NCBI RefSeq assembly: GCF_017315705.1
Contig: NZ_JAFLRF010000040.1
Location: 5,267 to 56,387, forward strand
From: Trinickia mobilis
GTDB taxonomy: Bacteria; Pseudomonadota; Gammaproteobacteria; Burkholderiales; Burkholderiaceae
Reading direction: 5' to 3'
Length of the DNA stretch: 51,121 nt
The notes beneath the pieces were generated by a model that saw only the letters and a program-made list of their open reading frames with translations, was not told where the DNA came from and made no database searches. This document shows positions 6,001 through 46,242 of this stretch, one piece after another (within the stretch, counting starts at the first letter, position 1; the number at the start of each line of letters is the position of its first letter). A program made the translations under genes and the position numbers.

Positions 6001-6020
6001 TCGAGGCCCCTCGATCGCCG

Positions 6021-8763: not shown

Positions 8764-8939
8764 GCCGGCTCGGAACGGCGGCGCGGCAACGCCTTGCGCG
8801 CCGCCGTCCCGCCTCCCTAAGAGGCTTGCCGCACAACGGTTTGCGGAGGAATAATTTTGAGACGGCGCGTGCTACGATAGTTCGCTCACCACGCTTCCAT
8901 AGGTCACTACCCGCCGTGACGACGAACGCAAACGGATCG

Positions 8940-9422
8940 ATGAAGTTGGACCGGATCGACCTTCGCATCCTGTCCCAGTTGCAACGGAAGGGCCGCATTA
9001 CGAATGTCGAGCTCGCAGACGCGGTCGGCCTGTCGCCGAGCCCGTGCCTGATTCGCGTGAAGCGGCTCGAGAAGGCCGGTTACATCGCGGGCTATGGCGC
9101 GCACCTGGAGCTCAGCAAGCTCGGCGACATCCAGCTCGTCTTCACCGAGATCACGCTGCAGGACCATCGCCGCGAAGACTTCGCCAAGTTCGAGGCCGCG
9201 ATCCGCAACGTCGACGAGATCGCGGAATGCCATCTCGTGAGCGGCGGCTACGACTATCTGCTCAAGTTCGTCACGCGCAGCGTCGTGCATTACCAGAGCG
9301 TGATGGAGGGCCTGCTGGAGCGCAATATCGGCATCGAGAAGTATTTCAGCTACGTCGTCATCAAGACGCCGTTCGTGAAGAACCATTTACCGATCGAAAG
9401 GCTGTTTCCGCTGACGGAATGA
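8940..9422 (+). CDS. Lrp/AsnC-family transcriptional regulator
   Basis: A 160-residue regulator with an N-terminal winged helix-turn-helix (RIDLRILSQLQRKGRIT...VELADAVGLSPSPC, about residues 4-60) and a C-terminal RAM ligand-binding domain containing SGGYDYLLKFVT. It is of the BkdR-like branch. ATG at 8940 is preferred; an in-frame GTG at 8916 would add eight residues. It lies between the aminotransferase and the semialdehyde dehydrogenase on the same strand, so it probably senses an amino acid or amine and controls these genes. Confidence 0.88.
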   Translation: MKLDRIDLRILSQLQRKGRITNVELADAVGLSPSPCLIRVKRLEKAGYIAGYGAHLELSKLGDIQLVFTEITLQDHRREDFAKFEAAIRNVDEIAECHLVSGGYDYLLKFVTRSVVHYQSVMEGLLERNIGIEKYFSYVVIKTPFVKNHLPIERLFPLTE

Positions 9423-9557
9423 GCGCCCGAGCAGGGCATCGGAACGGCGCGCGGCCGACAGATCGATAACGGCAGTTGGGCGGTATTGCTTCTTTCGAGC
9501 GGTATCGCCGGTGTTTTACATTTCGTAATCCTTATTCTTTCAGATTCAATTCCCGCC

Positions 9558-11039: not shown

Positions 11040-11071
11040 AGCCGCTTTGTCTTCGTTGAAAGGACACCGAT

Positions 11072-29840: not shown

Positions 29841-32354
29841 ATGCCCTCCATTCCTCCTGACCGAACACGTTCGCCGCTGTCCCACTACCGGAAGAAACGT
29901 GATTTCGACGTCACGCCGGAGCCCGCGCCGTCGGCTGCGAGCCCGTTAGCTGACGACCAGCGATTGGCCTTTGTTATCCAAAAGCACTGGTCTGGCCGAC
30001 TGCACTATGACTTTCGACTCGAACTCGACGGCGTGTTGATGTCCTGGGCCGTTCCGAAGGGTCCCTGCTACGACCCGAAGGAAAAGAGGATGGCGATTCA
30101 CGTCGAGGACCATCCGGTCGACTACGCGAGCTTCGAAGGCACTATCCCCCCCAAGCAGTATGGCGCCGGCAGCGTGCTCGTGTGGGACCGCGGAACCTGG
30201 GACCCGGTTGGCGACCCGCGCGAAGGCATGAAAGGCGGCAAGCTTGTTTTTCGCCTTCATGGTGAAAAGCTCGCCGGCATGTGGGAGCTGGTGCGCATCG
30301 CAAAGCCGGACGACAAGCAAGACCCGTGGATGCTCTTCAAGAAACGCGACGAGTGGGCGCAACCGCTTGCGCAATACGATGTCATCAAGGCGCTCCCTGA
30401 CAGCGTGGTCGCGAGGCCGCTCGGGCTTGTGGAAGAGCGCGAACCCAAGTCGGCCCGGCACGTGCGCGGAGCCGATTTGGAAATAGACCTCTCTGCCGCG
30501 GTGCCGGCTCCGCTTCCCGCGAAACTCGAGCCGCAACTCGCGACCCTCGCCCGCTTCCTGCCGACGGGAGGTGAATGGATAACCGAGGCCAAGCTTGATG
30601 GGTACCGCATGCTCGCGCGTGTCGACAAGGGGCGTGTGCGACTCTTTACGAGCGGGCGGCACGATTGGACAAAGAAGCTGGCAGGTCTCGCCGCAGAGGT
30701 CGAGCGGCTCCCCGTCTCCAGCGCGTGGCTCGATGGCGAAATCGTCGTACTCAAAGATGGCATTCCCGATTTCGCCGCGCTGCAGGATGCGATGGAGAAC
30801 GCTTCCAACGGGAACATCGTCTACTTCCTGTTTGACGTGGTGTACCTGGATGGAAAGGACCTACGGGGTGTGCCACTGTGGGCGAGGCGCGCGCTGCTCG
30901 CGCAGCTTCTGAAAAATGCGGGCGAACGGATTCGCTTCAGCCAGGATTTTGAGGCGCCACCGGCCCAGGTATTCGAAGCTGCCTCGGGGCTGGGTCTTGA
31001 AGGCTTGATGCTCAAACGGCGCGATGCGCCGTATGTCTCAGGGAGGTCGCAGACGTGGCTGAAGGCAAAATGCCGGTTGCGACAGGAGCTTGTCATTTGT
31101 GGTTTTACCAATCGCAGCGGCACGGCTGGGGAGATTGGCAGCTTGCTGCTCGGGTATTACGTGGATGGCAAGCTCTACGACGCCGGCAGCGTCGGCACGG
31201 GCTGGGATGCCCGGACTGCGCGGGACCTGTGGAACCGTTTCACCCCGCTCGAAGTGGATTCCGCGCCATTTGACGTCCCCGCTGCAAAGTCACCTCGGTC
31301 GTCCAGTCGGGCCGCTGGCAGCGAGCGCTGGGTCCAGCCGATATTGGTCGCGGAGGTTGAGTTCGCCGAGTGGACCCCCGACGGTCTCGTGCGGCAGGCC
31401 TCCTTCAAAGGATTGCGCGTCGACAAGTCTCCCGGCGACATCACCCGCGAAGCCACCACGACGTCAGCGTCCATGCCTGCGCCACAAGTCAAGGTCACCC
31501 ACCCGGACAGAGTGATTGACCAAACGACCGGCATCACCAAGCTTGACCTGTTCCGCTATTACGAGAGCGTGGCGCAGTGGCTGTTGCCCCACTTGAAGGA
31601 CCGTCCACTAGCGATGCTGCGCGCGCCCGCCGGCGTCAGCGAGGAAATGTTCTTCCAGAAGCATGCGGAGACGACAAGGATGCCAGGTCTGAAGGAACAC
31701 GACCCGAATCGGTGGCCTGGGCACCGGCCCTTGCTGACAGTCGACACGCCTGACGCGCTCATGTCGGCGGCACAGATGAATGTTGTCGAGTTTCACACGT
31801 GGAACTCAACAGTGCTGACGCTCGATAGGCCCGACCGGGTCATCTTCGACCTGGACCCCGGCGAAGGACTCAAGTGGGGGCAGATTCAGGAAGCGGCGCT
31901 CCTAGTGCACACGCTCCTGTCCGAGCTGGGGCTCAAGGCATGGCTCAAAACAACTGGTGGCAAGGGATTGCACATCGTCGTGCCGATGGTACCGAAGCAT
32001 GACTACGACACGGTAAAGGGGTTCTCGCGCGCATTCGTCCGACATCTCGCCAAGTTCATTCCCGAACGATTTTCGGCAACCTCAGGGCCCATAAATCGAG
32101 TCGGCAAGGTCTATGTCGACTACCTGCGCAACGGAATGGGCCAGACAACTGTCGCCGCCTTTTCGGCCCGGGCTCGGCCGGGCATGGGGGTCTCAATGCC
32201 GGTGTCCTGGGAGCAGCTTTCCGCACTGAAGAGTGGCGCGCAGTGGACCGTGTTGACGGCGCGCGAGTACCTGAGCTTCCAGACCCAAGACCCGTGGGCT
32301 GATTACTGGTCAACGAGGCAGTCGTTGGCATCAGCAATGAAGCGTCTACAATGA
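29841..32354 (+). CDS. ligD: Multifunctional ATP-dependent DNA ligase LigD
   Basis: An 837-residue NHEJ ligase with all three domains in the order phosphoesterase-ligase-polymerase. The 3'-phosphoesterase domain (about 15-180) has the His/Asp-rich HYDFRLELDGVL and AIHVEDHPVDYASFEG. The ligase domain (about 225-530) has the nucleotidyl-lysine K251 in TEAKLDGYR. The primase-polymerase domain (about 550-830) has the metal Asp pair D670/D672 in IFDLDPGEG and the TTGGKGLHIVVP motif. It trims, fills in and seals double-strand breaks with Ku. It is 126 bases upstream of ku. All key residues are present. Confidence 0.95.
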   Translation: MPSIPPDRTRSPLSHYRKKRDFDVTPEPAPSAASPLADDQRLAFVIQKHWSGRLHYDFRLELDGVLMSWAVPKGPCYDPKEKRMAIHVEDHPVDYASFEGTIPPKQYGAGSVLVWDRGTWDPVGDPREGMKGGKLVFRLHGEKLAGMWELVRIAKPDDKQDPWMLFKKRDEWAQPLAQYDVIKALPDSVVARPLGLVEEREPKSARHVRGADLEIDLSAAVPAPLPAKLEPQLATLARFLPTGGEWITEAKLDGYRMLARVDKGRVRLFTSGRHDWTKKLAGLAAEVERLPVSSAWLDGEIVVLKDGIPDFAALQDAMENASNGNIVYFLFDVVYLDGKDLRGVPLWARRALLAQLLKNAGERIRFSQDFEAPPAQVFEAASGLGLEGLMLKRRDAPYVSGRSQTWLKAKCRLRQELVICGFTNRSGTAGEIGSLLLGYYVDGKLYDAGSVGTGWDARTARDLWNRFTPLEVDSAPFDVPAAKSPRSSSRAAGSERWVQPILVAEVEFAEWTPDGLVRQASFKGLRVDKSPGDITREATTTSASMPAPQVKVTHPDRVIDQTTGITKLDLFRYYESVAQWLLPHLKDRPLAMLRAPAGVSEEMFFQKHAETTRMPGLKEHDPNRWPGHRPLLTVDTPDALMSAAQMNVVEFHTWNSTVLTLDRPDRVIFDLDPGEGLKWGQIQEAALLVHTLLSELGLKAWLKTTGGKGLHIVVPMVPKHDYDTVKGFSRAFVRHLAKFIPERFSATSGPINRVGKVYVDYLRNGMGQTTVAAFSARARPGMGVSMPVSWEQLSALKSGAQWTVLTAREYLSFQTQDPWADYWSTRQSLASAMKRLQ

Positions 32355-32480
32355 TTCGACTGGTGGCCAGCGCAGGAATGTGGGACGTTCCGAGTGCCAG
32401 CTGGAGACCCGGAGCCCCGATGGGGGCACATGCATTGCTTGGCGGGCTAGGGAAAACCGGCCCTCCGCGAGGAGAAGTTC

Positions 32481-33401
32481 ATGCCCGCTCGTTCCATCGC
32501 CTCGTTATCCCTGTCCTTTGGGCTCGTTTCCATCCCTGTCAAGCTCTATCCTGCGACGGAAAGTGCGTCCGACGTCAAATTCAACCTGCTTGCTCCCGAT
32601 GGCTCCCGCGTGAAACAGCAGTACATCTCGGAGTCGACGGGCGCGGTTGTCGAACGCTCTTCGATGAAGAAGGGCTATGAGTTTGAGAAGGACAAATACG
32701 TCGTATTCACCGGCGACGAACTCAAGGCGCTCGAGGAAGCCGCGAGTCACGTCGTCGAGATACTGGCCTTCATACCGGAGAAAGCGATTGACCCGGTCTA
32801 CTACGACAAGGCGTATTACATCGCACCCGACAAACGAGGCGGAAAGCCATACGGCTTGCTCCAGCAGGCGCTGGCCGAGAGCGGTCGATGCGCATTGGCC
32901 AAGTGGGCTTTCAAGGGCAAGACCCGAATCGTTCAGGTGCGGCCGAACGAAGACGGGCTGGTTTTTCAACAGTTGCTCTTTGCGGACGAGGTGCGGTCAC
33001 TGAAGGACTTGAGCGTCGAACACGTTCAAGTGACGGATGCTGAACTAAAGCTGGCGTTGCAAATCATCGAGCAGGGTGCCGAGGATAGCTACGACCCGTC
33101 GGCTTACGAGGACGAAGAGAAAAAGCGCATCCTTGCGGCCATCGACAGAAAGATTGAAGGCAAGGAGGTCGTCTCGGCCGAGTCTGAAGAGGTGGCGTCA
33201 AGCGGCGAGGTTATCGACCTCATGGAGGCATTGCGTGCCAGTCTTAAGGGAGGCGCCAAGGCGAAAGCCACGGCCGCGCCCAAGCGAGAGAGCGCGGAGC
33301 CGGTCGTAGAAATTTCTGCAGCCCCCAAAGCGCGGAAGCCCGCGGCCCGCGCGCCAAAGGTATCCACCGAGACCACAGCAAGGGCCCGGGCGCGCAAGTG
33401 A
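32481..33401 (+). CDS. ku: Non-homologous end-joining protein Ku
   Basis: A 306-residue bacterial Ku. The core beta-barrel starts ARSIASLSLSFGLVSIPVKL and ends near residue 255. It is followed by a Lys/Ala-rich, basic C-terminal tail that in bacterial Ku proteins helps bind and thread on DNA and recruit LigD. ATG at 32481 follows GAGGAGAAGTTC. Its TGA overlaps the GTG of the MerR-TPR gene (GTGA). Confidence 0.95.
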   Translation: MPARSIASLSLSFGLVSIPVKLYPATESASDVKFNLLAPDGSRVKQQYISESTGAVVERSSMKKGYEFEKDKYVVFTGDELKALEEAASHVVEILAFIPEKAIDPVYYDKAYYIAPDKRGGKPYGLLQQALAESGRCALAKWAFKGKTRIVQVRPNEDGLVFQQLLFADEVRSLKDLSVEHVQVTDAELKLALQIIEQGAEDSYDPSAYEDEEKKRILAAIDRKIEGKEVVSAESEEVASSGEVIDLMEALRASLKGGAKAKATAAPKRESAEPVVEISAAPKARKPAARAPKVSTETTARARARK

Positions 33402-34522: not shown

Positions 34523-35021
34523 AGTCTTCACGTTCCGCTCCAGCAAATCTAGCAACGACACCCATAGGGCATCGTGCGGGCTGTGAGTGGGCTCAACAGC
34601 ATCGCTCGATAGAAGCGAGTGTAGCGTTGGGGAAAGTGATGTGATTCGGCGAATCGAAGCCGACTTGCGGTGCGGTTCGACGAATGGCATTCGGCCCGCC
34701 GCTCGCACCAGGCGCGGAATTGCACGCGGTATGAAGCGCGTGCCTGGCCGCGGGCGAGTCCCAAACCTACAGATAGTGTTCGCCTGCGTGGTAGCAGGAG
34801 CAACTGCCAGCCGCAGCCTGCCTAGCACTCGCGCCATCTCATTTCGCTATCTTGGAAGGTAATTTTGGGCCTGGCTGCCGGCGAACGGGCCCTTTCGGCA
34901 GTCGATGGCCGTCCGTCCTCGGCTGTCCACGAATCGAACGTGGACATTGCTTGTCGTTCAGAAGGATGTTGCATGCTTTTCACCGCAGCGTGGCGTTTTG
35001 TTGTGCCATCATCGAGACACT
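34523..35021. other. Intergenic region with an inverted repeat before the nitroreductase
   Basis: About 500 bases without a convincing gene. The only clear structure is the inverted repeat at 34924-34946. Confidence 0.4.
34924..34946. promoter_or_regulatory. Perfect 8-base inverted repeat, candidate operator of the nitroreductase gene
   Basis: TGTCCACG and CGTGGACA flank AATCGAA, 75 bases upstream of the nitroreductase start. The dyad and spacing fit a dimeric regulator site; no U-tract follows, so a terminator is less likely. Confidence 0.45.
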
Positions 35022-35747
35022 ATGTACACAGATATCCTTGAAGCCGTGGAGACCGGCTCCCAATCGCATCTGGATGCTTGTATTGTCGATGCCGTGATTC
35101 GTTCGCGGCGGGCGATTCGTGCTTTCCGACCTGATGCAGTCTCGAAGGACGACATCGTTGAGATACTGGATGTCGCGCGCACTGCACCGAGCAATTCCAA
35201 CACTCAGCCGTGGAACGTGCACGTGCTCCATGGCCGGGCGAAACGGGAACTCAGTGAAGCTTTGGGGCAGGCACACGTCGCAGATGACTGCCCGCCGTTG
35301 CAGCACATGCCGAACCCTTTGCCCGAGGTTTGCAGGCCATGGCAAGAGGATTTCGGCGCCCGTTACTACGGAGCGCTCGGAATCGACAAAGCGGACGTTG
35401 CATCCCGAGTTCGCGCAGCAGGACGTAATTTCGACTTTTTCGGCGCGCCCGTAGGATTGATTTTCACAATCGACACGCGGCTCAAGAAATACAGTTGGCT
35501 CGACTGCGGAATCTTCCTCCAAACGCTGATGTTGGCGGCGCGCGCTCGAGGGCTCGATACCTGCGCGCAGGTTTCGTTCGCGCGATACCAGACAGTCATC
35601 GCGCAAAAGCTGAAGCTGGAACCCAGCTTCGATGTCGTATGTGGAATGTCGTTGGGCTATGCGGACGAGAACTCGGCGGTCAACAAGCTTGGTATCCCAC
35701 GCGCGACGGTGGAACAATTTGCAACTTTCCTTGGGTTCGACGGATAG
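35022..35747 (+). CDS. Nitroreductase-family FMN oxidoreductase
   Basis: A 241-residue nitroreductase. The FMN phosphate-binding IRSRRAIRAFRPDAVS, the SNTQPWNVHVLHG segment and the C-terminal GMSLGYADENSAVNKLG are typical of the NfnB/PnbA branch. Such enzymes reduce aromatic nitro groups to hydroxylamines or amines with NAD(P)H. ATG at 35022 (MYTDILEAVE) is chosen; the frame opens 39 codons earlier. The DUF4863 gene 10 kb away belongs to the lyase family that acts on 4-hydroxylaminobenzoate, the product of PnbA, so a shared substrate is possible. The intervening regulator and gap make this tentative. Confidence 0.85.
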   Translation: MYTDILEAVETGSQSHLDACIVDAVIRSRRAIRAFRPDAVSKDDIVEILDVARTAPSNSNTQPWNVHVLHGRAKRELSEALGQAHVADDCPPLQHMPNPLPEVCRPWQEDFGARYYGALGIDKADVASRVRAAGRNFDFFGAPVGLIFTIDTRLKKYSWLDCGIFLQTLMLAARARGLDTCAQVSFARYQTVIAQKLKLEPSFDVVCGMSLGYADENSAVNKLGIPRATVEQFATFLGFDG

Positions 35748-36409: not shown

Positions 36410-37141
36410 CTACAGGACCGCTTCGGCAACGAGCTGCAGTGCCGGAGCGAGCTTCATGCAAAGCTCCGGGCGCTCAAGCGCGTAGGTGAGGTTCCTCTGG
36501 GCAATCTGCACGTGTTCCGAGGCGAGTGCCTGAGCCCGGGCGCCTTCGCCTCGCTCCATTGCCTGAACGAGGCTGTGATGCTGCTGGTGTGCCATGAAAA
36601 GCCACTGGCGGCCCTCATCGATGGCGGACTGCATCGGCAGCATCGCGCTGGCTGCGGCGAACGGCAGCCGGTTGTTCATTTCGATGGCGCGGATGAGTGC
36701 CGCGTTGCCGGAGCCTTCAACGATAAGCTGATGGAGCCGGTTGTTCATCTCGGTGTACACCGCGTAGTCGTCGAGCGTCAGCTCGGACTTGGCGAGCAAC
36801 CGGTCGCCTGTACGCAGGCATTCGTTCAACGCGTTGGACAGCTGTCGCGGCACGCCATGTTCGGCAACCAGCCGGGCCGCCATGCCCTCGAGGTGTCCGC
36901 GCACGGCGATGGCGTCCGAGATTTCCGTGGCCGTGATGCGTCGCATGACATATCCGCCCGCCGGAGAGGGTTCCACCAGCCCCTCCTGCTCAAGGGTGGT
37001 GAGCGCGAGTCGAACCGGTGTGCGCGACGCCTGCAGCCGCTCGGCAAGGGCCACCTCGGCGAGGCGCTCTCCGGGCGCGAATTCGCCCTTGAGAATCAGG
37101 TCGCGCAAATAGACCAGTACGCGCTCTTGCTGGGACTCCAT
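36410..37141 (-). CDS. GntR-family (FCD subfamily) regulator, VanR-like
   Basis: A 243-residue regulator with an N-terminal GntR winged helix (LRDLILKGEFAPGERLAEV...RTPVRLALTTLEQEGLV, residues 10-70) and a C-terminal all-helical FCD effector domain. FCD metal-site residues appear in LDDYAVYTEMNNRLHQL and HQQHHSLVQAM. ATG at 37141. It is divergent from the Rieske oxygenase operon across 392 bases that contain several ATGCATAC-type sites. It most likely represses that operon until an aromatic ligand is present. Confidence 0.88.
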   Translation of the reverse strand: MESQQERVLVYLRDLILKGEFAPGERLAEVALAERLQASRTPVRLALTTLEQEGLVEPSPAGGYVMRRITATEISDAIAVRGHLEGMAARLVAEHGVPRQLSNALNECLRTGDRLLAKSELTLDDYAVYTEMNNRLHQLIVEGSGNAALIRAIEMNNRLPFAAASAMLPMQSAIDEGRQWLFMAHQQHHSLVQAMERGEGARAQALASEHVQIAQRNLTYALERPELCMKLAPALQLVAEAVL

Positions 37142-37533
37142 TCTCTTCTCCAGTGGCCCGAATCAGGGCCAGACAATCATCGCAGACGCGCTGCATTCAG
37201 CATGTACCGCATTGTAGACGATGGTCGCAGCGATTGCCGTCAAATGGTTATTGGTGTCAGAGCTTAAGTTCAACGATGTATGCAACAGCACTCGTCTGCG
37301 GTACAAATGCCGGTATCAGGGAAAATCCTGGTAATGCTGAATAAATTATTAAAAATCAAATACTTATGTATACTCAATCGGCCTATGCAGAAGCCGATGC
37401 GCGCGATTGTCTAGCGTCTAATGCATGCATAAATTGAATCAGTGAATTCTTACGCGTATGCTTCGTGCTCACCATGTGATTTGTTGCATACATTGACTCG
37501 AGTGATGCATACCATTCCCGCCGGAGAAAAGCC
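37142..37533. other. Divergent control region of the GntR gene and the oxygenase operon
   Basis: 392 bases, AT-rich in the middle. A TATACT box lies at 37369-37374 without a good -35 box. The GntR-type sites are listed separately. Confidence 0.5.
37277..37512. promoter_or_regulatory. Cluster of candidate GntR operators (TGTATGCAA / ATGCATAC type)
   Basis: Four related motifs: TGTATGCAAC at 37277-37286, the palindrome ATGCATGCAT at 37421-37430, GTTGCATACA at 37483-37492 (exact reverse complement of the first) and GATGCATAC at 37504-37512. The last two lie 22-51 bases before the oxygenase start. FCD-type GntR proteins typically bind short palindromes of this kind. Binding is inferred. Confidence 0.55.
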
Positions 37534-38850
37534 ATGATGAGTTCCCAGCAAAACGACCTGATAACGCGCGTCGGCAAGGGCACGCCCGCCGGCGAGCTGT
37601 TGCGCAACTATTGGCAGCCTGTGGCGCTGGTCGACGAACTGCCCGCCGAGCGTCCGGTCCGGGCCGTGCGTCTGATGGGCCAGGATTTCGTTGTATTCAA
37701 GGACGAGCAGGGCCGCTACGGCATGCTGGACCGTGACTGCCCGCACCGCGGCGCCGACCTCGCGGCAGGACGCCTCGAGGCGGGCGGTCTGCGCTGTGCG
37801 TTCCACGGGTGGCTCTTCGATGTCAACGGCAACTGCCTGTCGACGCCGGGAGAACCTGCCGGCAGCACGCTGTGCAAGAAGGTCGGTCAGAGCGCGTATC
37901 CCGTCGTGGAGCGCAGCGGCATCCTGTTCGCCTGCATCGGCAACGGTGAACCGCCGGCTTTCCCGAATTTCGACTGCTTTGCCGCGCCGGGCGACTACAC
38001 GTTTGCCTTCAAGGGCCTCTTTGAATGCAACTGGCTCCAAGCGCTCGAAGTCGGCATCGACCCGGCTCACGCATCGTTCCTGCACCGCTTCTTCGAAGAC
38101 GAAGACGTGAGCCAGAGCTACGGCAAGCAGTTCCGTGGCGCGTCAGCGGACTCAGACATGCCGATTACGAAGGTGCTGCGCGAATATGAATCGCCCGAGA
38201 TTCTCGTCAGCCCTGCCGATTACGGCCTGCGCCTCATTGCCAAACGGCCGCTTAACGACGAGCAGACGCACGTTCGTGTGACCAACGTCGTGTTCCCGCA
38301 GGCCTTCGTGATTCCGATGAGCTCGGAGATGACCATCACGCAATGGCACGTACCTGTCGATGACGAGAATTGCTACTGGTATGCCATCTTCACGAGCTTT
38401 GGCGCGCCGACCAACAAGCAGCAGATGCGCGAGCAGCGGCTCGAACTGTATGAGCTGCCCGACTACACGTCGCGCAAGAACAAACGCAACGACTACGGCT
38501 TCAACCTGCAGGAGCAGTTGACCGAGACGTACACGGGCATGGGCTTTGACATCAACGTTCACGACCAATGGGCCGTCGAATCGCAGGGTATTATTCAGGA
38601 CCGCACGCGCGAGCACCTGGGCACCACCGACAAGGGCATCACCGCGTACCGCCGTCTGCTGGTCGATGCGATTGAGAAGACGCAAGCGGGCGAAAAGACG
38701 TTGATGATGATTGACGAGCAGCAGGCGGCCCACCTTACCGGCCCTGCGTCCATCGACGGCATCGGCCCGGCGGACCGCTGGGATGAGTATTGGAAGGAGG
38801 CGGACATCAACCGCCGCACGGCCGCCCCGTGGCCGGCACCGAAGGCTTGA
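37534..38850 (+). CDS. Rieske non-heme iron oxygenase, alpha subunit
   Basis: A 438-residue aromatic-ring-hydroxylating oxygenase of the LigX/phthalate-4,5-dioxygenase/VanA type. The Rieske [2Fe-2S] ligands are C69, H71, C88 and H91 (CPHRG ... CAFHGW). The mononuclear iron site is D176-x2-H179-x4-H184 in GIDPAHASFLH. ATG at 37534 follows GGAGAAAAGCC. No beta subunit is encoded, which is normal for this branch. Its redox partners, a ferredoxin and a ferredoxin reductase, follow in the same operon. It should hydroxylate an aromatic, possibly a gamma-glutamylated amine. Confidence 0.92.
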   Translation: MMSSQQNDLITRVGKGTPAGELLRNYWQPVALVDELPAERPVRAVRLMGQDFVVFKDEQGRYGMLDRDCPHRGADLAAGRLEAGGLRCAFHGWLFDVNGNCLSTPGEPAGSTLCKKVGQSAYPVVERSGILFACIGNGEPPAFPNFDCFAAPGDYTFAFKGLFECNWLQALEVGIDPAHASFLHRFFEDEDVSQSYGKQFRGASADSDMPITKVLREYESPEILVSPADYGLRLIAKRPLNDEQTHVRVTNVVFPQAFVIPMSSEMTITQWHVPVDDENCYWYAIFTSFGAPTNKQQMREQRLELYELPDYTSRKNKRNDYGFNLQEQLTETYTGMGFDINVHDQWAVESQGIIQDRTREHLGTTDKGITAYRRLLVDAIEKTQAGEKTLMMIDEQQAAHLTGPASIDGIGPADRWDEYWKEADINRRTAAPWPAPKA

Positions 38851-38908
38851 GGACCTCCCCGCAACCTGAATGGAGCGCGCGGCTGTCCTGTCGCCGCGCG
38901 AATCAAAG

Positions 38909-40345
38909 ATGTCTTTCGTAGAATCACATGGCTTGTGGACAGACGCTCAGCACGTTGCGTACAAAGCGCTGCTGGAGCGCCTGCAAAAGAGTGATGTCCG
39001 GGTGGTGCGTTTTTCGTTTCCCGACCAGCATGGACTTCTGCGCGGCAAGACCCTCGTCGTCGACGAGGCTATCAAGGCATTCAAAAGTGGCGTGACGCTC
39101 ACGACCACGCTCCTCGCCAAAGATACCTCACACCGTACGGTGTTCCCGGTGTTCACTGCCGGCGGCGGCTTCGACATGCCTGAAATGCAGGGCGCGTGCG
39201 ACACGCTGATGGTCGCCGACCCCGAGACGTTCCGCATCCTGCCCTGGGCGCCGCATACCGGCTGGGTGCTGTGCGACGCCTACTTCGCCAATGGCAGGCC
39301 GGTGCCGTTTGGCACCCGGCATCTCTTCAAACGCGCGCTCGGCCAGCTGTCCGGTCATGGGTACGAGTTCGTGTCCGGCCTTGAAGTCGAGTTTCACGTC
39401 TTCAAGGTGACCAACCCGAACATGAAGCCCGAGCACTCAGGGCAGCCCGGTACACCACCCGATGTCGAACTGCTCTCGCATGGTTACCAGTATCTGACGG
39501 AGTTGCGTTACGACGCTGTCGACGACGTGATGGAACTGCTCCGCTGCAACATCGATGGGCTCGGGCTGCCGGTACGCTCGCTCGAGATCGAGTATGGTCC
39601 GAGCCAGTTCGAGTTCACGTTTGCCCCCACGAACGGCATTCGCGGCGCCGACGACATGATTCTGTTTCGCAGCGCGGTCAAGCAGATTTGCCAGCGCAAC
39701 GGCTATCACGCGACTTTCATGTGCCGGCCGCGGATTCCGAATGTGGTGTCGAGCGGATGGCATCTGCATCAGTCGCTCGTGCATGCCGCGGACGGGAAGA
39801 ACGTGTTCATGCCGACCTGTGCCGATGAACCGCTTTCGTCGATCGGCCAGAAATATCTGGCGGGGCTTCTCGCGCATGCCCAGGGCGCGACGGCCTTGTC
39901 GACGCCGACCATCAACGGTTACCGGCGCTACCGGCCGTATTCGAATGCACCGGACCGCGCCATCTGGGGACGCGACAACCGTGGCGTGATGCTGCGCGTG
40001 CTGAGTGGCCCGAATGACCCGGCAAGCCGTGTCGAAAACCGCGTCGGCGAGCCGACGGCTAACCCGTATCTTTACTTCGGCTCGCAGGTGCTCTCTGGCA
40101 TGGATGGCCTGCGACGCAATCTCGAGTTGCCGCCCTCGGCGGACACGCCTTATGAAACGCAGGCCGACTCGCTGCCTCGCACGCTTGGCGATGCAATCGA
40201 CGCGCTGCGTGCCGATGAATGTCTACGCGAAGGTTTCGGCAATGCATTCGTCGACTACTTCTGCAAGCTCAAGGAAGCCGAGCTCAACCGCTTCAACCTG
40301 GAAGTCACCGAGTGGGAACACCGGGAGTATTTCGAAACGTTCTGA
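38909..40345 (+). CDS. Glutamine-synthetase-like gamma-glutamyl ligase
   Basis: A 478-residue member of the glutamine synthetase superfamily. It has the N-terminal beta-grasp (VRVVRFSFPDQHGLLRGKTL), the Glu-rich metal site (GLEVEFHVF, LEIEYGPSQFEF), WHLHQSL and SGPNDPASRVENR. It belongs to the GSIII/GlnA-related group that includes AtdA1/TdnQ of aniline and IpuC of isopropylamine degradation, which join L-glutamate to an amine with ATP. ATG at 38909 (MSFVESHGL) is preferred; a possible start 39 bases upstream has no better site. It lies directly after the Rieske gene. The amine substrate is not known. Confidence 0.87.
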   Translation: MSFVESHGLWTDAQHVAYKALLERLQKSDVRVVRFSFPDQHGLLRGKTLVVDEAIKAFKSGVTLTTTLLAKDTSHRTVFPVFTAGGGFDMPEMQGACDTLMVADPETFRILPWAPHTGWVLCDAYFANGRPVPFGTRHLFKRALGQLSGHGYEFVSGLEVEFHVFKVTNPNMKPEHSGQPGTPPDVELLSHGYQYLTELRYDAVDDVMELLRCNIDGLGLPVRSLEIEYGPSQFEFTFAPTNGIRGADDMILFRSAVKQICQRNGYHATFMCRPRIPNVVSSGWHLHQSLVHAADGKNVFMPTCADEPLSSIGQKYLAGLLAHAQGATALSTPTINGYRRYRPYSNAPDRAIWGRDNRGVMLRVLSGPNDPASRVENRVGEPTANPYLYFGSQVLSGMDGLRRNLELPPSADTPYETQADSLPRTLGDAIDALRADECLREGFGNAFVDYFCKLKEAELNRFNLEVTEWEHREYFETF

Positions 40346-40374
40346 CGGTGTTCCCATCGTAAAGGAGAGATGCC

Positions 40375-40698
40375 ATGCCTATCGTCACTTACATTCTGCG
40401 CGACGGTGAGCGCCGGGAAATCGGGGTGCCCGCTGGCACCAGCGTGATGGAAGCCGCCATTCGCAACAATGTGCGCGGCATCGATGCCGAGTGCGGTGGT
40501 TGCCTGTCGTGCGCAACGTGCCATGTCTATGTCGACGCGTCGTCGACAGCGGAGCTGCCGTCGCCAGACGAGTCCGAACTGGAACTGCTCGAGGGCGTAG
40601 CCGCCGAGCGCCGTCCCGAGAGCCGGCTGAGCTGCCAGCTCGTCATGACACCCGCCATGAGCGGACTGGTCGTGCAGATTGTCCAGAAGCAGGGGTGA
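40375..40698 (+). CDS. [2Fe-2S] ferredoxin, putidaredoxin/adrenodoxin type
   Basis: A 107-residue ferredoxin. Cluster ligands C40, C46, C49 and C87 fit C-x5-C-x2-C...C; an additional Cys at 43 sits inside the loop (CGGCLSCATC). This type feeds electrons to P450s and to some Rieske oxygenases. ATG at 40375 follows AAAGGAGAG. Four bases separate it from the reductase gene. It is the electron carrier for the oxygenase two genes upstream. Confidence 0.92.
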   Translation: MPIVTYILRDGERREIGVPAGTSVMEAAIRNNVRGIDAECGGCLSCATCHVYVDASSTAELPSPDESELELLEGVAAERRPESRLSCQLVMTPAMSGLVVQIVQKQG

Positions 40699-40702
40699 CC
40701 TC

Positions 40703-41959
40703 ATGAAACAGACGCTTGTGATTGTTGGGGCATCCTATGCGGGCATGCAGCTTGCCGCGTCCGCAAGGGAATTCGGTTTCGACGGGCATATCGTGCTGCT
40801 AGGCGATGAGCCCCACGCGCCGTATCACCGTCCACCGCTGTCAAAAGGCTTTCTGACTGGCAGTTATACGGAGGACCGTCTGCTCCTGCGGTCGCAGGCG
40901 TTCCTGGAAGAGGAAAAGATTCAGTGGATGCCATCTACATGCGCCACCTGCATCGACCGCGAACGCAAAGAAGTCGAACTGCATGACGGTGCCCGAATCG
41001 CGTACGACCATCTTGCGCTGACGACCGGTGCGCGTGTGCGCAAGCTCGACTGCCCAGGCGCGACGCGCGAGGCGGTGCACTACCTGCGTGACCTGCGCGA
41101 CGCGCGACGGCTGGCTGAAGCGGTACGTACCGCACGGCGTGCCGTCGTCATCGGTGGCGGCTACATCGGCCTTGAAGCAGCAGCCTCGCTGCGTCAACAG
41201 GGACTCGAAGTGACCGTCGTCGAAACAGAGCCACGTTTGCTGGCACGGGTCGCTTCGCCTTGGCTGTCTGAATTCATGCTGCGCGCCCACACGGAGCATG
41301 GCGTTGCGTTCAAGTTTGGTCGCAAGGTGGTGGCCTTGCACAACACGGTCAATGTCGTCTCGGTCGAACTCGAGGATGGCTCGCGACTGATGTGCGACCT
41401 CATCGTGGTCGGTATCGGCGTCGTTCCCAACACGGAACTGGCCGCAGATAGCGGGTTGAAGGTGGTGGGGGGCATTGCTGTCGACTCCTTCGCGCGCACC
41501 AGCGACCCGTCGATTGTGGCCGCGGGCGACTGCGTCTCGTTTGTGCCGCATTGGGCGCCCGCCGGCACGCCTGCCTGCCGTATCGAGTCAGTGCAAAACG
41601 CGAACGATATGGCAAAAACCGCTGCGGCTTCCATCGTCGGCCGGACGGAACCCTACCGTGCGCTGCCGTGGTTCTGGTCGGACCAATACGACCTGAAACT
41701 GCAAATGGCAGGAGTGCACACCGGGTTCACGGAGTTCGTACTGCGCGGCGCGGTCGAAGACCGCAAGTTCTCGCTCTTTTACTTCCGTGGCGTGAAGCTC
41801 ATCGCGGTCGACAGCATCAACAGGCCACAGGACCACATGCTCGCGCGCAAGCTGCTGACAAATGGCGCGCAGCCGACACCGCAGCAGGTCAGCGACCCCG
41901 ACTTCGACCTGAAGGCGCTGGCGAACCAGCCGGCTCTCGTTGCACAGGGAGTCGCGTAA
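40703..41959 (+). CDS. FAD-dependent ferredoxin reductase
   Basis: A 418-residue putidaredoxin-reductase-type flavoprotein. FAD-binding LVIVGASYAGMQLA is at the N-terminus, the NAD-binding VVIGGGYIGLEAAASL is near residue 150, and VAAGDCVSF is the second FAD motif. The C-terminal domain is complete. ATG at 40703 follows AGGGGTGACC. Its TAA overlaps the ATG of the amidotransferase gene (TAATG). It completes the three-component electron chain NAD(P)H, reductase, ferredoxin, Rieske oxygenase. Confidence 0.92.
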   Translation: MKQTLVIVGASYAGMQLAASAREFGFDGHIVLLGDEPHAPYHRPPLSKGFLTGSYTEDRLLLRSQAFLEEEKIQWMPSTCATCIDRERKEVELHDGARIAYDHLALTTGARVRKLDCPGATREAVHYLRDLRDARRLAEAVRTARRAVVIGGGYIGLEAAASLRQQGLEVTVVETEPRLLARVASPWLSEFMLRAHTEHGVAFKFGRKVVALHNTVNVVSVELEDGSRLMCDLIVVGIGVVPNTELAADSGLKVVGGIAVDSFARTSDPSIVAAGDCVSFVPHWAPAGTPACRIESVQNANDMAKTAAASIVGRTEPYRALPWFWSDQYDLKLQMAGVHTGFTEFVLRGAVEDRKFSLFYFRGVKLIAVDSINRPQDHMLARKLLTNGAQPTPQQVSDPDFDLKALANQPALVAQGVA

Positions 41960-42738
41960 TGAGTTCGGGTGAAATCCGCCGCCCACTCGTCGGCCTTGTC
42001 TGTGACCGCTTCTTTGTGGGCGAACACGACCTGCACAGCGCAAAGCACAGCTACATCCGGGCATTGATGTCCTGCTCGCGCGTGAGTCCCGTTCTGATTC
42101 CAGCTACGCAGGACATCGAGACCATCGAAGACTATCTCGACGGCGTGAGCGGTTTGCTGTTTCCAGGTGGCGCTTCGAATGTCGAAGCCCGACGTTACGG
42201 TGGAATCTCGGATATCGACATGCTGGTTGACCCCGACCGCGACCACGTCGCGCTGGAACTGATGCGGGGCGCTGCCGCGCGCGGCATGCCGTTTCTGGCA
42301 ATCTGCCGTGGTTTCCAGGAAATGAATGTGGCCTTTGGCGGCACGCTCCATACCGACATTCATGCGGCGGGGCGCGCCGCTGAACACCTTGAAGACCCCA
42401 ACGAGGATTTGTCCACCCGCTACCGGTACAAGCACGACATTGACCTCACTGCCGGTGGCTGGCTCGCCGCACTCACGGGCGAGCAGCGCGTGCGCGTGAA
42501 TTCGCTTCACCGGCAGGGCGTTGCCGTACTGGCGCCGCCACTCGCTGTTGAGGCATGCGCGCCGGACGGATTGATTGAGGCTTATCGACTCGACGGCAAC
42601 GACTTTGCACTGGGTGTGCAGTGGCACCCGGAAGTCACCGTGGAGAGTGATGGGACGTCGCGCTCGCTCTTTGAGGCATTCGGGATGAGTTGCCGCCGTT
42701 ATGCCGCGCAACAGGCCGTTGTTCGCAACAAGGGTTAG
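41959..42738 (+). CDS. Class-I glutamine amidotransferase-like gamma-glutamyl hydrolase (PuuD/AtdA2-like)
   Basis: A 259-residue Peptidase_C26 protein. Nucleophile C116 is in FLAICRGFQEMN and the His223/Glu225 pair is in VQWHPEV. The FPGGASNVEARRYGG and NSLHRQGV segments match PuuD, which hydrolyses gamma-glutamyl-GABA. In aniline clusters the matching gene (AtdA2/TdnT) accompanies the glutamine-synthetase-like ligase. It starts at ATG 41959, overlapping the reductase stop. It would remove or balance the gamma-glutamyl group. Confidence 0.9.
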   Translation: MSSGEIRRPLVGLVCDRFFVGEHDLHSAKHSYIRALMSCSRVSPVLIPATQDIETIEDYLDGVSGLLFPGGASNVEARRYGGISDIDMLVDPDRDHVALELMRGAAARGMPFLAICRGFQEMNVAFGGTLHTDIHAAGRAAEHLEDPNEDLSTRYRYKHDIDLTAGGWLAALTGEQRVRVNSLHRQGVAVLAPPLAVEACAPDGLIEAYRLDGNDFALGVQWHPEVTVESDGTSRSLFEAFGMSCRRYAAQQAVVRNKG

Positions 42739-42742
42739 AACC

Positions 42743-43717
42743 ATGTCAGCAGAACGCATCGACCTCAACCTGCTTCGCGTGTTCGACGCAGTATTCGAAG
42801 ACCGCAACCTTGCATTGGCGGGCAAGCGCCTGCATCTCAGTCAATCGGCTATCAGCCATGCGCTTACGCGCCTGCGGCAAGTGCTCGGCGACGACCTCTT
42901 TGTGCGCACGGCCAGGGGGATGGAGCCGACCATGCGCGCGCATGGCATGGCAGCGCCGGTGCGCGGCGCGCTTCAGCAAATCAAGGCCGCGCTCGGTGTG
43001 GATGCGTTCGACCCTAGCGGTGCACAACGCAAATTCGTTGTTGCCGCGAACGACTGCATAACGTCCCTGCTGCTCGGACGACTCAGCCAGCGACTGAGCG
43101 CGGAAGCGCCGCTGGTGGACCTGGTCATCCGGCCCTCGACGCGGCTCGACCTTGCGGGGCAAATAGACGTCGGGCGCATCGATATCGCGGTCGGCATATT
43201 CGCAGACGTCCCGTCACGCTTCAGGTCGATGAAGGTCTGGGAGCAGACCGATGTGCTGCTCCTGCATCGTGAACATCCCATTGCCGACCGGCCTCTGACC
43301 CGCGAGGACCTGCTGTCCTATCCGCTTGTTGCTATCTCGCAGGGTGGTGAGGAGGACGGGGCGGTGGGCGGCTTTATCGTTGAACGCGGTCTCGCGAGGC
43401 AATCGGAGATGTTCAATCGCGACGCGCTCAACGTCGCATTTGCCGACAAGAGTGGGGCACCACGCATGCGCATGTCGGTTGCACATTCCCTGGCGATACC
43501 CGCGCTGCTTCGGCACAGCAACATGCTCGCGCTGGTTCCCTCATCGCTTGGCCGCGAACTGGAGCGGCACGGTGAACTGAAAATGCGCGCGACGCCCTAT
43601 GACTGTCCGAACGTACCAGTGCGTGTTGTCTGGCATGAGCGCAACGACGCAGACCCAGCGTTGCAATGGCTCAGGCATCAGCTTACCGATGTGGCGCGGC
43701 AGGTCCGCACCTGCTGA
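42743..43717 (+). CDS. LysR-family transcriptional regulator
   Basis: A 324-residue LysR protein of the NodD/LinR/DntR-like branch. The helix-turn-helix (LNLLRVFDAVFEDRNLALAGKR... LSQSAISHALTRLRQ) spans residues 8-65, followed by the ligand-binding domain with a GRIDIAVGIF stretch. ATG at 42743, four bases after the amidotransferase stop. As the last gene of the operon it may activate the operon or the downstream transporter. The window thus has two regulators for one pathway (GntR and LysR). Confidence 0.9.
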   Translation: MSAERIDLNLLRVFDAVFEDRNLALAGKRLHLSQSAISHALTRLRQVLGDDLFVRTARGMEPTMRAHGMAAPVRGALQQIKAALGVDAFDPSGAQRKFVVAANDCITSLLLGRLSQRLSAEAPLVDLVIRPSTRLDLAGQIDVGRIDIAVGIFADVPSRFRSMKVWEQTDVLLLHREHPIADRPLTREDLLSYPLVAISQGGEEDGAVGGFIVERGLARQSEMFNRDALNVAFADKSGAPRMRMSVAHSLAIPALLRHSNMLALVPSSLGRELERHGELKMRATPYDCPNVPVRVVWHERNDADPALQWLRHQLTDVARQVRTC

Positions 43718-43995
43718 TTCACGCTGTTCAAGATTGTTATGCGAAGAATTCACTCTGCCCTTGTCTCTGAGAGAAGTCGCATCAACGTCGTCAAATAGTC
43801 GGCAAACATAGGGGCTTCTTGATGCAAAACCGGCACATCGCGCGAGCGTGCGAGTGGCGTGATTCTTTGTCGCCAGTCAGGTGTCCACGCTTTGCCGGGT
43901 TGTTGCCCGAAATTGACGCTCTTAAGCTTGGCCGCCGGTGAAATCTGGCATTCAGGCCGTATCGGATTCACTTCAATCCAATAAGTGAGGATGCA

Positions 43996-45357
43996 ATGGA
44001 AGAGACCAGGACTGTCGATGTACAAACGCTCATCAACGAGCACCCCTTCTCGGGATATCAGTGGCTGGTGTTCGCAATGTGTTTCATCATCGTACTGATG
44101 GACGGCTTCGATACGGCCGCTATTGGCTTCATCGCACCTTCATTGTTGTCGGAATGGAACCTCAGCAAAGCCGCACTGGCACCGGTGTTGAGTGCCGCGC
44201 TTTTCGGCCTCGCGTGCGGTGCGCTGATTTCAGGTCCGATATCGGACCGTTGGGGGCGACGGCTCGTTCTGACCGGCTCGGTACTGCTGTTCAGTCTGGC
44301 GTGTATTGGTTCGGGCTATGCGTCGAATCTGACGGAGCTGACTATGCCGCGCTTTATCACGGGCGTAGGTCTGGGCGCGGCGATGCCCAATGCGGTGACG
44401 CTCATGAGCGAATTCTGCCCGGACAAGCGCCGCTCGACTATCGTCAACCTGATGTTCTGCGGCTTTCCGCTGGGTGCGGCATTCGGTGGCTTCCTTGCGG
44501 CGTGGATGATTCCGCAGTTCGGCTGGCGTAGCGTTCTGCATTTCGGCGGCGCCCTGCCCCTTCTCCTCACCGTGATGCTCGCAATCATGCTGCCTGAGTC
44601 GATTCGCTACATGGTTGCCAAGCAGCAGCCGGTCGAAAAGATTCGCAAGGTTTTGGTTCGTATCAACGATAGCGCCTGGTCTGCGCAGGCGTTCGTCATG
44701 CAGGAAGCCGTGGTGCGTGCGCCCGTTAGTGGCGGCATTCGCATTGTGCTGTCGCGCTCGTACATCCTCGGGTCAGTGCTGTTGTGGCTGTGCTACTTCA
44801 TGGGCCTTGTCATCTTCTACGGCCTCGTGAACTGGATGCCTGTGCTGTTCAAGGAGGCCGGCATGAGCCCTCAGCGCGCAGCAATGATTTCCGCGCTGTT
44901 CCCGTTAGGTGGTGCAGGTACCGTGCTGTGCGGCATGCTGATGGACCGATTCAATCCGAACCGCGTGGTCGCCGCAGCGTATGCGCTTGGCGCGCTCAGC
45001 GTCTTTGCAATCGGCCAGTCAATTGGCAACATCGGCCTGCTGGTGTGCGCGGTCTTTGTCGCCGGCGTGCTCGTCAACACGGCGCAGGCCTCGATGCCGT
45101 CGCTCGCCGCAGCGTACTATCCGACGGCGGGGCGCGGCACAGGCGTGGCATGGATGTTAGGCGTAGGCCGCTTTGGCGGCATTGCCGGTTCGTTTCTCGT
45201 CGCTGAGCTCTCCCGGCAACAGGTCAGCCTGCCGGGCATCTTCACAGTCGTGGCAATCGCAGGGAGCATATCGTGCGTGGCGCTGCTGCTCAAGCAGGCG
45301 ACCAGCTCGCACGCGGTCGTTGCAGACGTGCCGGATGGAGAGTCGCTCGCACACTAG
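43996..45357 (+). CDS. MFS transporter, aromatic acid:H+ symporter (AAHS) family, second copy
   Basis: A 453-residue 12-helix permease. LMDGFDTAAIGFIAPSLL and DRWGRRLVL mark the AAHS family. It is very similar throughout to the protein at 22501-23859. ATG at 43996 follows AGTGAGGATGCA. A 278-base gap separates it from the LysR gene, so it may have its own promoter. It likely imports the acid substrate of the oxygenase pathway. Confidence 0.92.
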   Translation: MEETRTVDVQTLINEHPFSGYQWLVFAMCFIIVLMDGFDTAAIGFIAPSLLSEWNLSKAALAPVLSAALFGLACGALISGPISDRWGRRLVLTGSVLLFSLACIGSGYASNLTELTMPRFITGVGLGAAMPNAVTLMSEFCPDKRRSTIVNLMFCGFPLGAAFGGFLAAWMIPQFGWRSVLHFGGALPLLLTVMLAIMLPESIRYMVAKQQPVEKIRKVLVRINDSAWSAQAFVMQEAVVRAPVSGGIRIVLSRSYILGSVLLWLCYFMGLVIFYGLVNWMPVLFKEAGMSPQRAAMISALFPLGGAGTVLCGMLMDRFNPNRVVAAAYALGALSVFAIGQSIGNIGLLVCAVFVAGVLVNTAQASMPSLAAAYYPTAGRGTGVAWMLGVGRFGGIAGSFLVAELSRQQVSLPGIFTVVAIAGSISCVALLLKQATSSHAVVADVPDGESLAH

Positions 45358-45377
45358 GTGAGCTTCTGAGGGGGCCT

Positions 45378-45397
45378 CTCAGCGGGGCCCCGCTGAG
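45378..45397 (+). terminator. 20-base perfect palindrome after the AAHS transporter
   Basis: CTCAGCGGGG followed directly by CCCCGCTGAG, 21 bases after the transporter stop. It can form a GC-rich hairpin that probably ends the transcript, although no U-tract follows. Confidence 0.45.
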
Positions 45398-45440
45398 CCG
45401 ATTGGCTACACCGGCTAAGGACAATTGCAAGGAGAGCCCC

Positions 45441-45593
45441 GTGACCGAAGCAAGCGCACCTCAATGGAACCTGCCTCAATCCTGGCAATAGAAAAAGTTT
45501 CACCACCTGCACCGCTTCATCGTCGTGCAGGCTGCGGCGATGACTGCCGTCGAAGGTCGCTACTTGGAAGGCGAAGCCCGACGTGCTGCATAA
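45441..45593 (+). pseudogene. Short frame with strong ribosome site, interrupted by an in-frame TAG
   Basis: AAGGAGAGCCCC precedes a GTG at 45441. Sixteen codons (TEASAPQWNLPQSWQ after the start) lead to a TAG at 45489-45491. The same frame then continues for 33 codons (FHHLHRFIVVQAAAM...) to TAA at 45591. It could be a decayed small gene or a 16-residue leader peptide. The family is not recognised. Confidence 0.35.
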
Positions 45594-45610
45594 GTTCAGA
45601 AAAGACAAAG

Positions 45611-45632
45611 CCCCTGAGCGTTGCGTCAGGGG
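45611..45632 (-). terminator. Intrinsic terminator of the DUF4863 gene
   Basis: Stem CCCCTGA / TCAGGGG with an eight-base loop, followed on the minus strand by a T-rich CTTTGTCTTTT tract, 59 bases after the DUF4863 stop. Confidence 0.7.
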
Positions 45633-45690
45633 ATTAGGACACGCACACTTCGACCTGCATGCTCATCCCGTCACTTAACCGACTATGCTC

Positions 45691-46242
45691 TCAGTGCTGC
45701 GGCGGCGTAACGTCGTACGCAATCCGTCCGGCGGGCAGGAAGAACAGTGCGATAACAGCACCGCCCTTGGCTTCAGGGTAGTGGTGGCTTCCCGGCGCCG
45801 GCGCCGTCCAGCCGCCATAGCACCAGCCGCTCGGACCTGCGAGCGCAGCGCCTTCATTGAGCGGCACAACCATGTTGAACTCACCATACGGGTGCGAATG
45901 GTAGTCACCGCGAAAGCTGCCTTCTAGGTTGTTCTGGGTGTTTCCCGTGCTGTCCATCAACACCGCAGTGATGCTGAAGAAAAACGTCTGTGCGCAGGGC
46001 ACAACCAGTCGCGCGCGGCGATAGCGCGGACCGGCGATTTCGACATCGGCGGCCCAGCCTTCTTTCACGCCGATGGTAATCAGTCGCGACACGTCCTTGT
46101 ACAGCTCACTTTCAACGCCGTACTTCGCATTCAGCCATTGCTCGACTTCAGCGCTCGTGGTCATATCCTTGACCTCTTCCAGAAAGAGAATGCAAAGGGC
46201 GACGAGTTCGTCTTTGGCGCTTGCGAATGGGGTCTCAGACAT
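45691..46242 (-). CDS. DUF4863 cupin, 4-hydroxylaminobenzoate lyase (PnbB) family
   Basis: A 183-residue protein. The C-terminal half is a cupin: HSHPYGE gives ligands H115, H117 and E121, and GSHHYPE supplies H153 or H154. As I recall, DUF4863 contains PnbB, which turns 4-hydroxylaminobenzoate into protocatechuate and ammonia. ATG at 46242 follows a strong AAGGAGGAAACCGG. It is convergent with the AAHS transporter and ends in its own terminator. A lyase role with a hydroxylamino- or amino-aromatic intermediate is plausible, but the substrate here is inferred. Confidence 0.8.
   Translation of the reverse strand: MSETPFASAKDELVALCILFLEEVKDMTTSAEVEQWLNAKYGVESELYKDVSRLITIGVKEGWAADVEIAGPRYRRARLVVPCAQTFFFSITAVLMDSTGNTQNNLEGSFRGDYHSHPYGEFNMVVPLNEGAALAGPSGWCYGGWTAPAPGSHHYPEAKGGAVIALFFLPAGRIAYDVTPPQH

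Follow-up and report, generated by a model that had tools for sequence, protein, structure and literature searches.

The window analysed here is a 51,121-nt stretch (51 kb of an 8.0 Mb assembly) of Trinickia mobilis DNA that carries a gene cluster built around a Rieske oxygenase and a glutamine synthetase (GS)-like ligase. Genes for the oxygenase, the ligase, a ferredoxin, a reductase and an amidotransferase are packed at 37534-42738 on the plus strand, and the gaps from the Rieske gene to the LysR gene, computed from coordinates, are in order 19 or 58, 29, 4, -1 and 4 nt (Table 1). Based on an open reading frame (ORF) list and a Pfam search of the window, all parts of the cluster are intact ORFs, in agreement with the gene list of a preliminary description made from the sequence alone; the range given there, 36410..46242, leaves out the nitroreductase gene at 34905-35747. 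The cluster is a real, coherent system of the Sad type, known from the sad operon of Hydrogenophaga intermedia PBC, with additions, and the evidence names a likeliest natural substrate: we anticipate, with a probability of roughly 0.6, that it degrades 4-aminobenzoate.

Two genes were relabelled. The supposed DUF4863 cupin belongs to PF16155, the Pfam family PnbB, "4-hydroxylaminobenzoate lyase". The amidotransferase, previously called PuuD/AtdA2-like, is a member of the PuuD-like C26 family, although it misses the cut-off of the PuuD equivalog NF008471 (170.7 of 266 bits); it shares 24-29% identity with those two atd-type amidotransferases to which it aligns over more than 100 residues, and was rejected as an AtdA2 ortholog on that ground. 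The importer scores slightly below the cut-off of the aromatic acid:H+ symporter (AAHS) model TIGR00895 (407.1 against 418.55 bits). Elsewhere the genome encodes the beta subunit of protocatechuate 3,4-dioxygenase (pcaH; 356.2 bits, cut-off 296.4) next to a pcaG-like gene, and thus protocatechuate could be used.

Table 1. Features of the Sad-type cluster and its surroundings in the window
Feature	Coordinates	Strand	Basis and remarks
Nitroreductase (PF00881)	34905..35747	+	Pfam; start may lie at 35022; perhaps a PnbA-type partner
GntR/FCD regulator	36410..37141	-	Pfam; divergent from operon
TGYATRCA site 1 (putative GntR operator)	37277..37284		Motif scan
TGYATRCA site 2 (putative GntR operator)	37422..37429		Motif scan
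TGYATRCA site 3 (putative GntR operator)	37485..37492		Motif scan
SadA-type Rieske oxygenase, alpha subunit only	37534..38850	+	Rieske PF00355 and LigXa_C PF19301
SadB-type gamma-glutamyl ligase, GS-like	38909..40345	+	Gln-synt_C PF00120; possible in-frame upstream ATG at 38870
[2Fe-2S] ferredoxin	40375..40698	+	Fer2 PF00111
FAD-dependent ferredoxin reductase	40703..41959	+	Pyr_redox_2 and Reductase_C
Peptidase_C26 (PuuD-like) protein, probably gamma-glutamyl hydrolase	41959..42738	+	Pfam
LysR regulator	42743..43717	+	43-73% identical to LysR proteins encoded near stand-alone PnbB genes
Aromatic acid:H+ symporter-like MFS importer	43996..45357	+	MFS
PnbB-type protein, PF16155 long type	45691..46242	-	Pfam, 194.1 bits against cut-off 26.9

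The ligase and its partner oxygenase

Gamma-glutamylation of an aromatic amine, proposed in the preliminary description, is supported by the ligase. Its best match among solved structures is NpaA1 (8wwu; 440 bits, runner-up 176 bits), an entry taken as NpaA1 because the annotated NpaA1 gene matches the aligned 8wwu sequence almost letter for letter. NpaA1 glutamylates 1-naphthylamine (PMC11335346). The window ligase clusters with neither GlnA nor PuuA: it falls short of the cut-offs of the GlnA model TIGR00653 (222.6 against 429.15 bits) and the PuuA model NF045547 (226.2 against 650 bits), and the other three of the four PF00120 proteins encoded in the genome are far from it in a ligase tree. 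This tree was built by a quick method from 80 of 105 rows; the 25 omitted rows are Burkholderiaceae near-copies and L137, L139, L141, L120, L122, L124 and L127 (L and G numbers denote loci and genomes of our comparison). The window ligase lies in a clade of 57 rows (support 91) with those of N. resinovorum SA1 and a Hydrogenophaga metagenome-assembled genome (MAG), outside the AtdA1/NpaA1 clade. Three ligases encoded with annotated two-subunit dioxygenases fall in a separate, atd-type clade of 13 rows (support 99), in a tree whose deep branches are only moderately supported and several of whose rows are long-branched. Ligases of the atd type are 43-49% identical to that of the window. The distribution is patchy, with a ligase at E <= 1e-100 in 28 of 398 genomes of the same family and in one of three in the genus.

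Seven Rieske-less ligase relatives (L135-L141; six from Actinomycetota, one from Hyphomicrobium) share a conserved gene of about 341 aa at or near the ligase end, presumably encoding a nitrilase-family protein. This gene pair would be another use of glutamyl-amine ligases.

Docking placed the amine of NpaA1 close to loop V68-M81, which the neighbouring subunit contributes; F75, F86 and W235 stand at the neck of the tunnel (PMC11335346). We compared these positions in an alignment of 103 rows, NpaA1 standing twice. E232 and E234, which belong to the amine site, are conserved throughout (103/103). The F75 position, Lys71 in the window, is Lys in 74/74 Sad-type, 9/9 alphaproteobacterial edge and 3/3 actinobacterial rows, whereas the five atd-type rows all have F or V and the 12 others all have F or M (Lys in 86/86 such ligases and 0/17 rows outside). 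A Rieske gene is present with 85 of the 86 Lys-ligase rows and with none of the 16 distinct proteins that lack Lys. At the V201 position, 73 of the 74 Sad-type rows have Tyr or Phe (Tyr195 in the window), and the aniline enzyme AtdA1 has Tyr there (PMC11335346). A lysine in place of the aromatic tunnel residue of aniline enzymes would suit an acid-bearing ring, and the acidic substrate suggested earlier is supported by Lys71 together with the motif sites that precede the hydrolase-importer pair in some Cupriavidus-type loci (see below).

The closest solved relatives of the Rieske protein are phthalate- and isophthalate-type enzymes, which are described as alpha-only (PMC12445078). Neither the ORF list nor Pfam places a beta subunit gene in the operon, which bears out the earlier assignment to an alpha-only oxygenase of the phthalate branch; a beta gene is present in L147-L149. 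Window R248 aligns with R244 of PDO-KF1, a residue that binds the substrate carboxylate (PMC12445078), and is kept in all rows of an 84-row alignment from which L111 (row below 300 residues) was omitted. Since R248 is shared with other enzymes of the phthalate branch, it marks the branch and not one substrate. PDO-KF1 R207 aligns, in a gap-dependent placement, with K213 (K in 54, Q in 16 and R in 11 of the 84 rows). An AlphaFold model of the Rieske protein from a 12-row alignment was poor (mean predicted local distance difference test score, pLDDT, 43.3) and was not used.

The Rieske alpha gene stands directly before the ligase gene, and the two are, judged by their sequences, co-inherited: pairwise identities of the two proteins correlate over 84 loci (r 0.92), with 0 of 500 permutations as high. 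A Rieske gene of the same type occurs within 4.5 kb in 56 of the 57 ligase-clade rows, window included, so the pairing is not due to chance; in the sole exception, L086, the contig ends 2.65 kb upstream of the ligase. All 13 plasmid records with such a Rieske gene (E <= 1e-120) are also in the ligase list. In Nitratireductor OM-1 (L150), the Rieske protein is 71% and the ligase 50% identical to those of the window, and the two genes lie on opposite strands.

An aniline or aliphatic amine pathway of the atd, ipu or puu type would explain the family resemblance of the ligase and the PuuD-like hydrolase, but is very improbable given the separate ligase clade, the Lys in the aromatic tunnel position, the carboxylate-type oxygenase and an operon without a beta subunit gene. 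We rejected the aniline and polyamine readings on ligase clade and tunnel residue.

The pocket also bears on whether this could be a true sad operon, with 4-aminobenzenesulfonate (sulfanilate) as substrate. Its architecture is that of sad (PMC5632844), and the plasmid of SA1 encodes a ligase of the same clade that is 59% identical, and a Rieske protein 68% identical, to those of the window. However, at the position of NpaA1 S79 (window position 75) 73 of 74 Sad-type rows have His, SA1 being the exception, and SA1 is also the only one of the 74 with Asn at the M81 position (window 77). These changes, known from one sequence and absent from the Hydrogenophaga MAG, might mark sulfonate use. Growth on sulfanilate also needs 4-sulfocatechol genes, conserved only in H. 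intermedia among the Hydrogenophaga compared (PMC5632844); none were recognised among the annotated window genes, to which that search was confined, and the pnb linkage described below points to benzoates. We consider sulfanilate an improbable substrate of the window cluster.

The putative operator motif and the linkage to pnb genes

A palindrome, TGYATRCA, was derived from 11 aligned intergenic regions, ten from loci of the Paraburkholderia/Caballeronia type and one from the window, so an independent test of it can come only from loci that do not belong to that group. The window has four sites against 2.0 expected, and at least four occur in 16 of 100 shuffles, so the number is not above chance overall. 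Three of the four lie within the 392-nt intergenic region before the Rieske gene and the fourth at 49325; it is this position, and conservation in other loci, that give the motif its weight. In the 34 named loci that have a GntR gene next to the Rieske-ligase pair, 91 sites fall in the 450 nt that precede the Rieske gene (34 x 450 nt), at least one in each locus, compared with 18 in the remaining ~692 kb. In 18 of 23 Paraburkholderia/Caballeronia-type loci, three sites recur relative to the Rieske start, at -235 to -267, -109 to -113 and -46 to -49, and the Hydrogenophaga MAG has four sites.

Cupriavidus-type loci have a site 53-63 nt before gntR in 11/11 cases (L060 and L152 are the same plasmid) and sites before the Rieske gene in 8/11; in the other three (L059, L061, L154) they precede a nitroreductase gene that runs in the same direction as the Rieske gene and comes immediately before it. 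In C. pinatubonensis (L060/L152), sites lie 84-165 nt before a detached amidotransferase-importer pair, and L034, L038 and L039 have sites in the divergent Rieske-amidotransferase region. The motif thus ties the hydrolase, the importer and, in some strains, the nitroreductase to the pathway. Counting against the motif, L097 and L087 lack sites altogether, L084 lacks them close to its genes, and L102, L107 and L121 have one site each. The GntR gene adjoins the Rieske-ligase pair in other betaproteobacterial loci (55-71% identity), and we infer that GntR binds the TGYATRCA sites. Generic scans of the window gave one promoter site (2.6 in shuffles) and 10 terminators (8.8 in shuffles).

The PnbB-type protein groups, in a tree of 41 PF16155 proteins, with a long type of 33 rows (support 99), as distinct from seven short-type rows (L177, L170-L175) that are 30-34% identical to it. 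To count as long-type, a PnbB had to be listed with a match no shorter than 480 nt and no weaker than 190 bits, and thus a neighbour in G242 (182 bits, 432 nt) was counted as absent. PF16155 occurs in 151 of the 398 same-family genomes. The long type is found in 23 of 26 genomes with a Sad-type ligase versus 13 of 372 others (Fisher 4e-25, uncorrected for kinship), and within 15 kb on the same contig in 21 of the 26, a count that omits two ligase-positive genomes without such a Rieske gene within 4.5 kb (G392, 50% identical; G036, 45% identical). Among 14 ligase-free long-type loci (L156-L169), 13 have a LysR 43-73% identical to that of the window and 11 also a nitroreductase nearby, which we take to be the layout of the pnb genes. 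Homologs of the window nitroreductase (41-94% identical) lie near the same cluster or adjoin PnbB in other genomes, and in the window the distance is about 10 kb.

PnbB of at least 50% identity occurs, in the stretch examined, in 28 of 102 ligase loci, window included. These 28 span four lineages: the Paraburkholderia/Caballeronia type, the Cupriavidus type, Methylobacterium nodulans and Rhodococcus ruber. A parsimony count of PnbB presence (9 changes) was affected by contig ends and was not used. Rhodococcus ruber carries on one strand pnbB, nitroreductase, importer, Rieske, ligase, Fer2-domain reductase and class-I amidotransferase genes, with one 117-aa ORF of no assigned family before the importer; the electron chain and the amidotransferase therefore vary by lineage while Rieske and ligase are constant. 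The PnbB-type protein of the window may be a lyase that yields protocatechuate.

This linkage, and the nitroreductase gene that in L059, L061 and L154 immediately precedes the Rieske operon and itself has motif sites in front, could mean that the operon chiefly salvages 4-aminobenzoate formed by reduction of 4-nitrobenzoate and does not serve growth on aminobenzoate. Many loci, however, have the pair without a nitroreductase or PnbB in the flanks examined, and the operon has its own regulator, with the importer under the same motif in some Cupriavidus-type loci. A mainly salvaging role is therefore unlikely, if less so than the other alternatives.

Proposed route and its weight

We propose a route from 4-aminobenzoate via gamma-glutamyl-4-aminobenzoate to protocatechuate. 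The MFS importer would take up 4-aminobenzoate, and the ligase would join it with glutamate at the expense of ATP. The alpha-only Rieske oxygenase, supplied with electrons from NAD(P)H via the reductase and the ferredoxin, would dioxygenate the conjugate at positions 3,4, and the nitrogen would depart with the glutamyl group to leave protocatechuate. The PuuD-like hydrolase could clear surplus gamma-glutamyl conjugate, and GntR would act on the TGYATRCA sites before the Rieske gene. The nitroreductase, the PnbB-type lyase and LysR would form a 4-nitrobenzoate module leading via 4-hydroxylaminobenzoate to protocatechuate. As this module adjoins the operon, nitro-, hydroxylamino- and aminobenzoate would converge.

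Several points weigh against 4-aminobenzoate. The characterised relatives act on 4-aminobenzenesulfonate (PMC5632844), and no assay of the Sad-type family on 4-aminobenzoate was found in the literature searched. The NpaA1 pocket assignments come from docking and mutants, for a loop that belongs to the neighbouring subunit, and the residue counts, like the Fisher value, ignore kinship. Most loci outside Burkholderiaceae, in a locus set where some genomes are represented twice, have no pnb genes in the flanking sequence examined, and several carry branched-chain-type ABC transporter genes instead. The function of PnbB is Pfam's label for a family that also includes the short type, and its homologs include a 2-hydroxylaminobenzoate mutase (PMC6449761); a PF16155 gene has also been placed among benzoate (box) genes (PMC6449761). 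A scan of the whole window revealed no TGYATRCA site before the importer, nitroreductase or PnbB gene, and L036 has none before its amidotransferase gene.

That the substrate belongs to the acidic amine class is highly probable, more so than 4-aminobenzoate in particular. The same chemistry on 3-aminobenzoate, anthranilate, aminosalicylate or an amino-hydroxybenzoate would fit Lys71 and R248, which indicate just a likely acid group, and the mutase among the PF16155 homologs. We nevertheless regard these acids as unlikely, since the single characterised system found for the family uses a para-substituted amine and the name that Pfam gives to the linked lyase refers to the para isomer. A literature search that largely did not reach subscription journals found no paper assigning the Sad-type family to 4-aminobenzoate, and passages from PMC5789663 and PMC5748707, both on P. 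phymatum transcriptomes, make no statement attributable to the cluster.

Two other gene groups were seen in the window. At 29841-33401, an 837-aa ORF, presumably a LigD-kind ATP-dependent DNA ligase, is followed by Ku (PF02735), a pair that we take to serve bacterial end-joining. Genes for a 2-hydroxyacid dehydrogenase, a class III aminotransferase, an aldehyde dehydrogenase and an AstE/AspA-like protein follow one another at 5229-12058 and probably form an operon for the catabolism of an amine or amino acid.

Comparison with known systems

The preliminary description regarded the combination of genes as undescribed, and here it cannot be followed. In the sad operon of H. intermedia PBC, described through transposon mutagenesis, sadA encodes 4-aminobenzenesulfonate 3,4-dioxygenase, sadB a glutamine synthetase and sadC a ferredoxin (PMC5632844, which cites Gan et al. 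2012, Microbiology 158:1933 as the primary sad paper). As in the window, the Rieske, GS-like ligase and ferredoxin genes stand together. On plasmid pSA3 of N. resinovorum SA1, Rieske, ligase, ferredoxin, reductase, glutaminase and maleylacetate reductase genes share one region. With these two systems known, the Rieske-ligase-ferredoxin combination is itself not new. The Hydrogenophaga MAG has the window's order of GntR (minus strand), Rieske, ligase, ferredoxin and reductase genes. In contrast to sad, the window adds the PuuD-like hydrolase, the aromatic-acid importer and the pnb module, its predicted substrate is a carboxylate, and no 4-sulfocatechol genes were recognised beside its operon. 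New are the tunnel Lys, the TGYATRCA motif and the pnb linkage, within an architecture known from sulfanilate degraders. Glutamylation, the phthalate-branch alpha-only oxygenase and the acidic substrate thus stand from the preliminary description, and we keep its caution over substrate and order of steps.

Plasmid pSA3 (L142 / L178) also carries folP, encoding dihydropteroate synthase, at 275767-276597, about 10 kb from the ligase gene. The natural substrate of this enzyme is 4-aminobenzoate, so the neighbourhood may mean something. The compound is a folate precursor, and its breakdown in soil is thus of general interest.

The authors of PMC5632844 argue that the Hydrogenophaga sad operon must have a natural substrate, probably a compound close to 4-aminobenzenesulfonate, and Alcaligenes aquatilis grows on 4-aminobenzoate by genes not identified in PMC6460240. 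For both, the cluster family suggests an answer that can be tested through a specific substrate, a lysine as diagnostic mark, a putative operator for its regulator and a collection of genomes. More tentatively, and at slightly less than even odds, Sad-type operons may be the widespread aerobic route for 4-aminobenzoate in Pseudomonadota and some Actinomycetota, with sulfanilate as a side activity or recent recruitment (the SA1 pocket changes), to which Burkholderiaceae, Methylobacterium and Rhodococcus separately joined pnb genes so that nitro-, hydroxylamino- and aminobenzoate are all funnelled to protocatechuate.

The aniline-type systems atdA, tdn, dca and npa resemble the window in a GS-like ligase that makes a gamma-glutamyl conjugate, an amidotransferase and a Rieske oxygenase. 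Takeo and colleagues in 2013 are said to have found that the amidotransferase hydrolyses surplus gamma-glutamyl conjugate in such a system. Unlike the window, these systems have a two-subunit oxygenase, F or V instead of K in the tunnel, and ligases of another clade, and atd-type loci L147 and L149 have no separate ferredoxin gene annotated, whereas the window has one followed by a reductase gene. In aniline-type systems, the ligase forms a gamma-glutamyl amide, and the dioxygenase cannot use the free amine (PMC11335346).

The pnbA-pnbB pathway for 4-nitrobenzoate shares the nitroreductase, the PF16155 lyase and LysR with the window. That pathway is not known to have a ligase or Rieske step, and the window module is physically joined to one. 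C. testosteroni KF1 has dioxygenases for phthalate and isophthalate that are alpha-only and have the same carboxylate-binding arginine as the window Rieske protein, but they use free dicarboxylates without a ligase.

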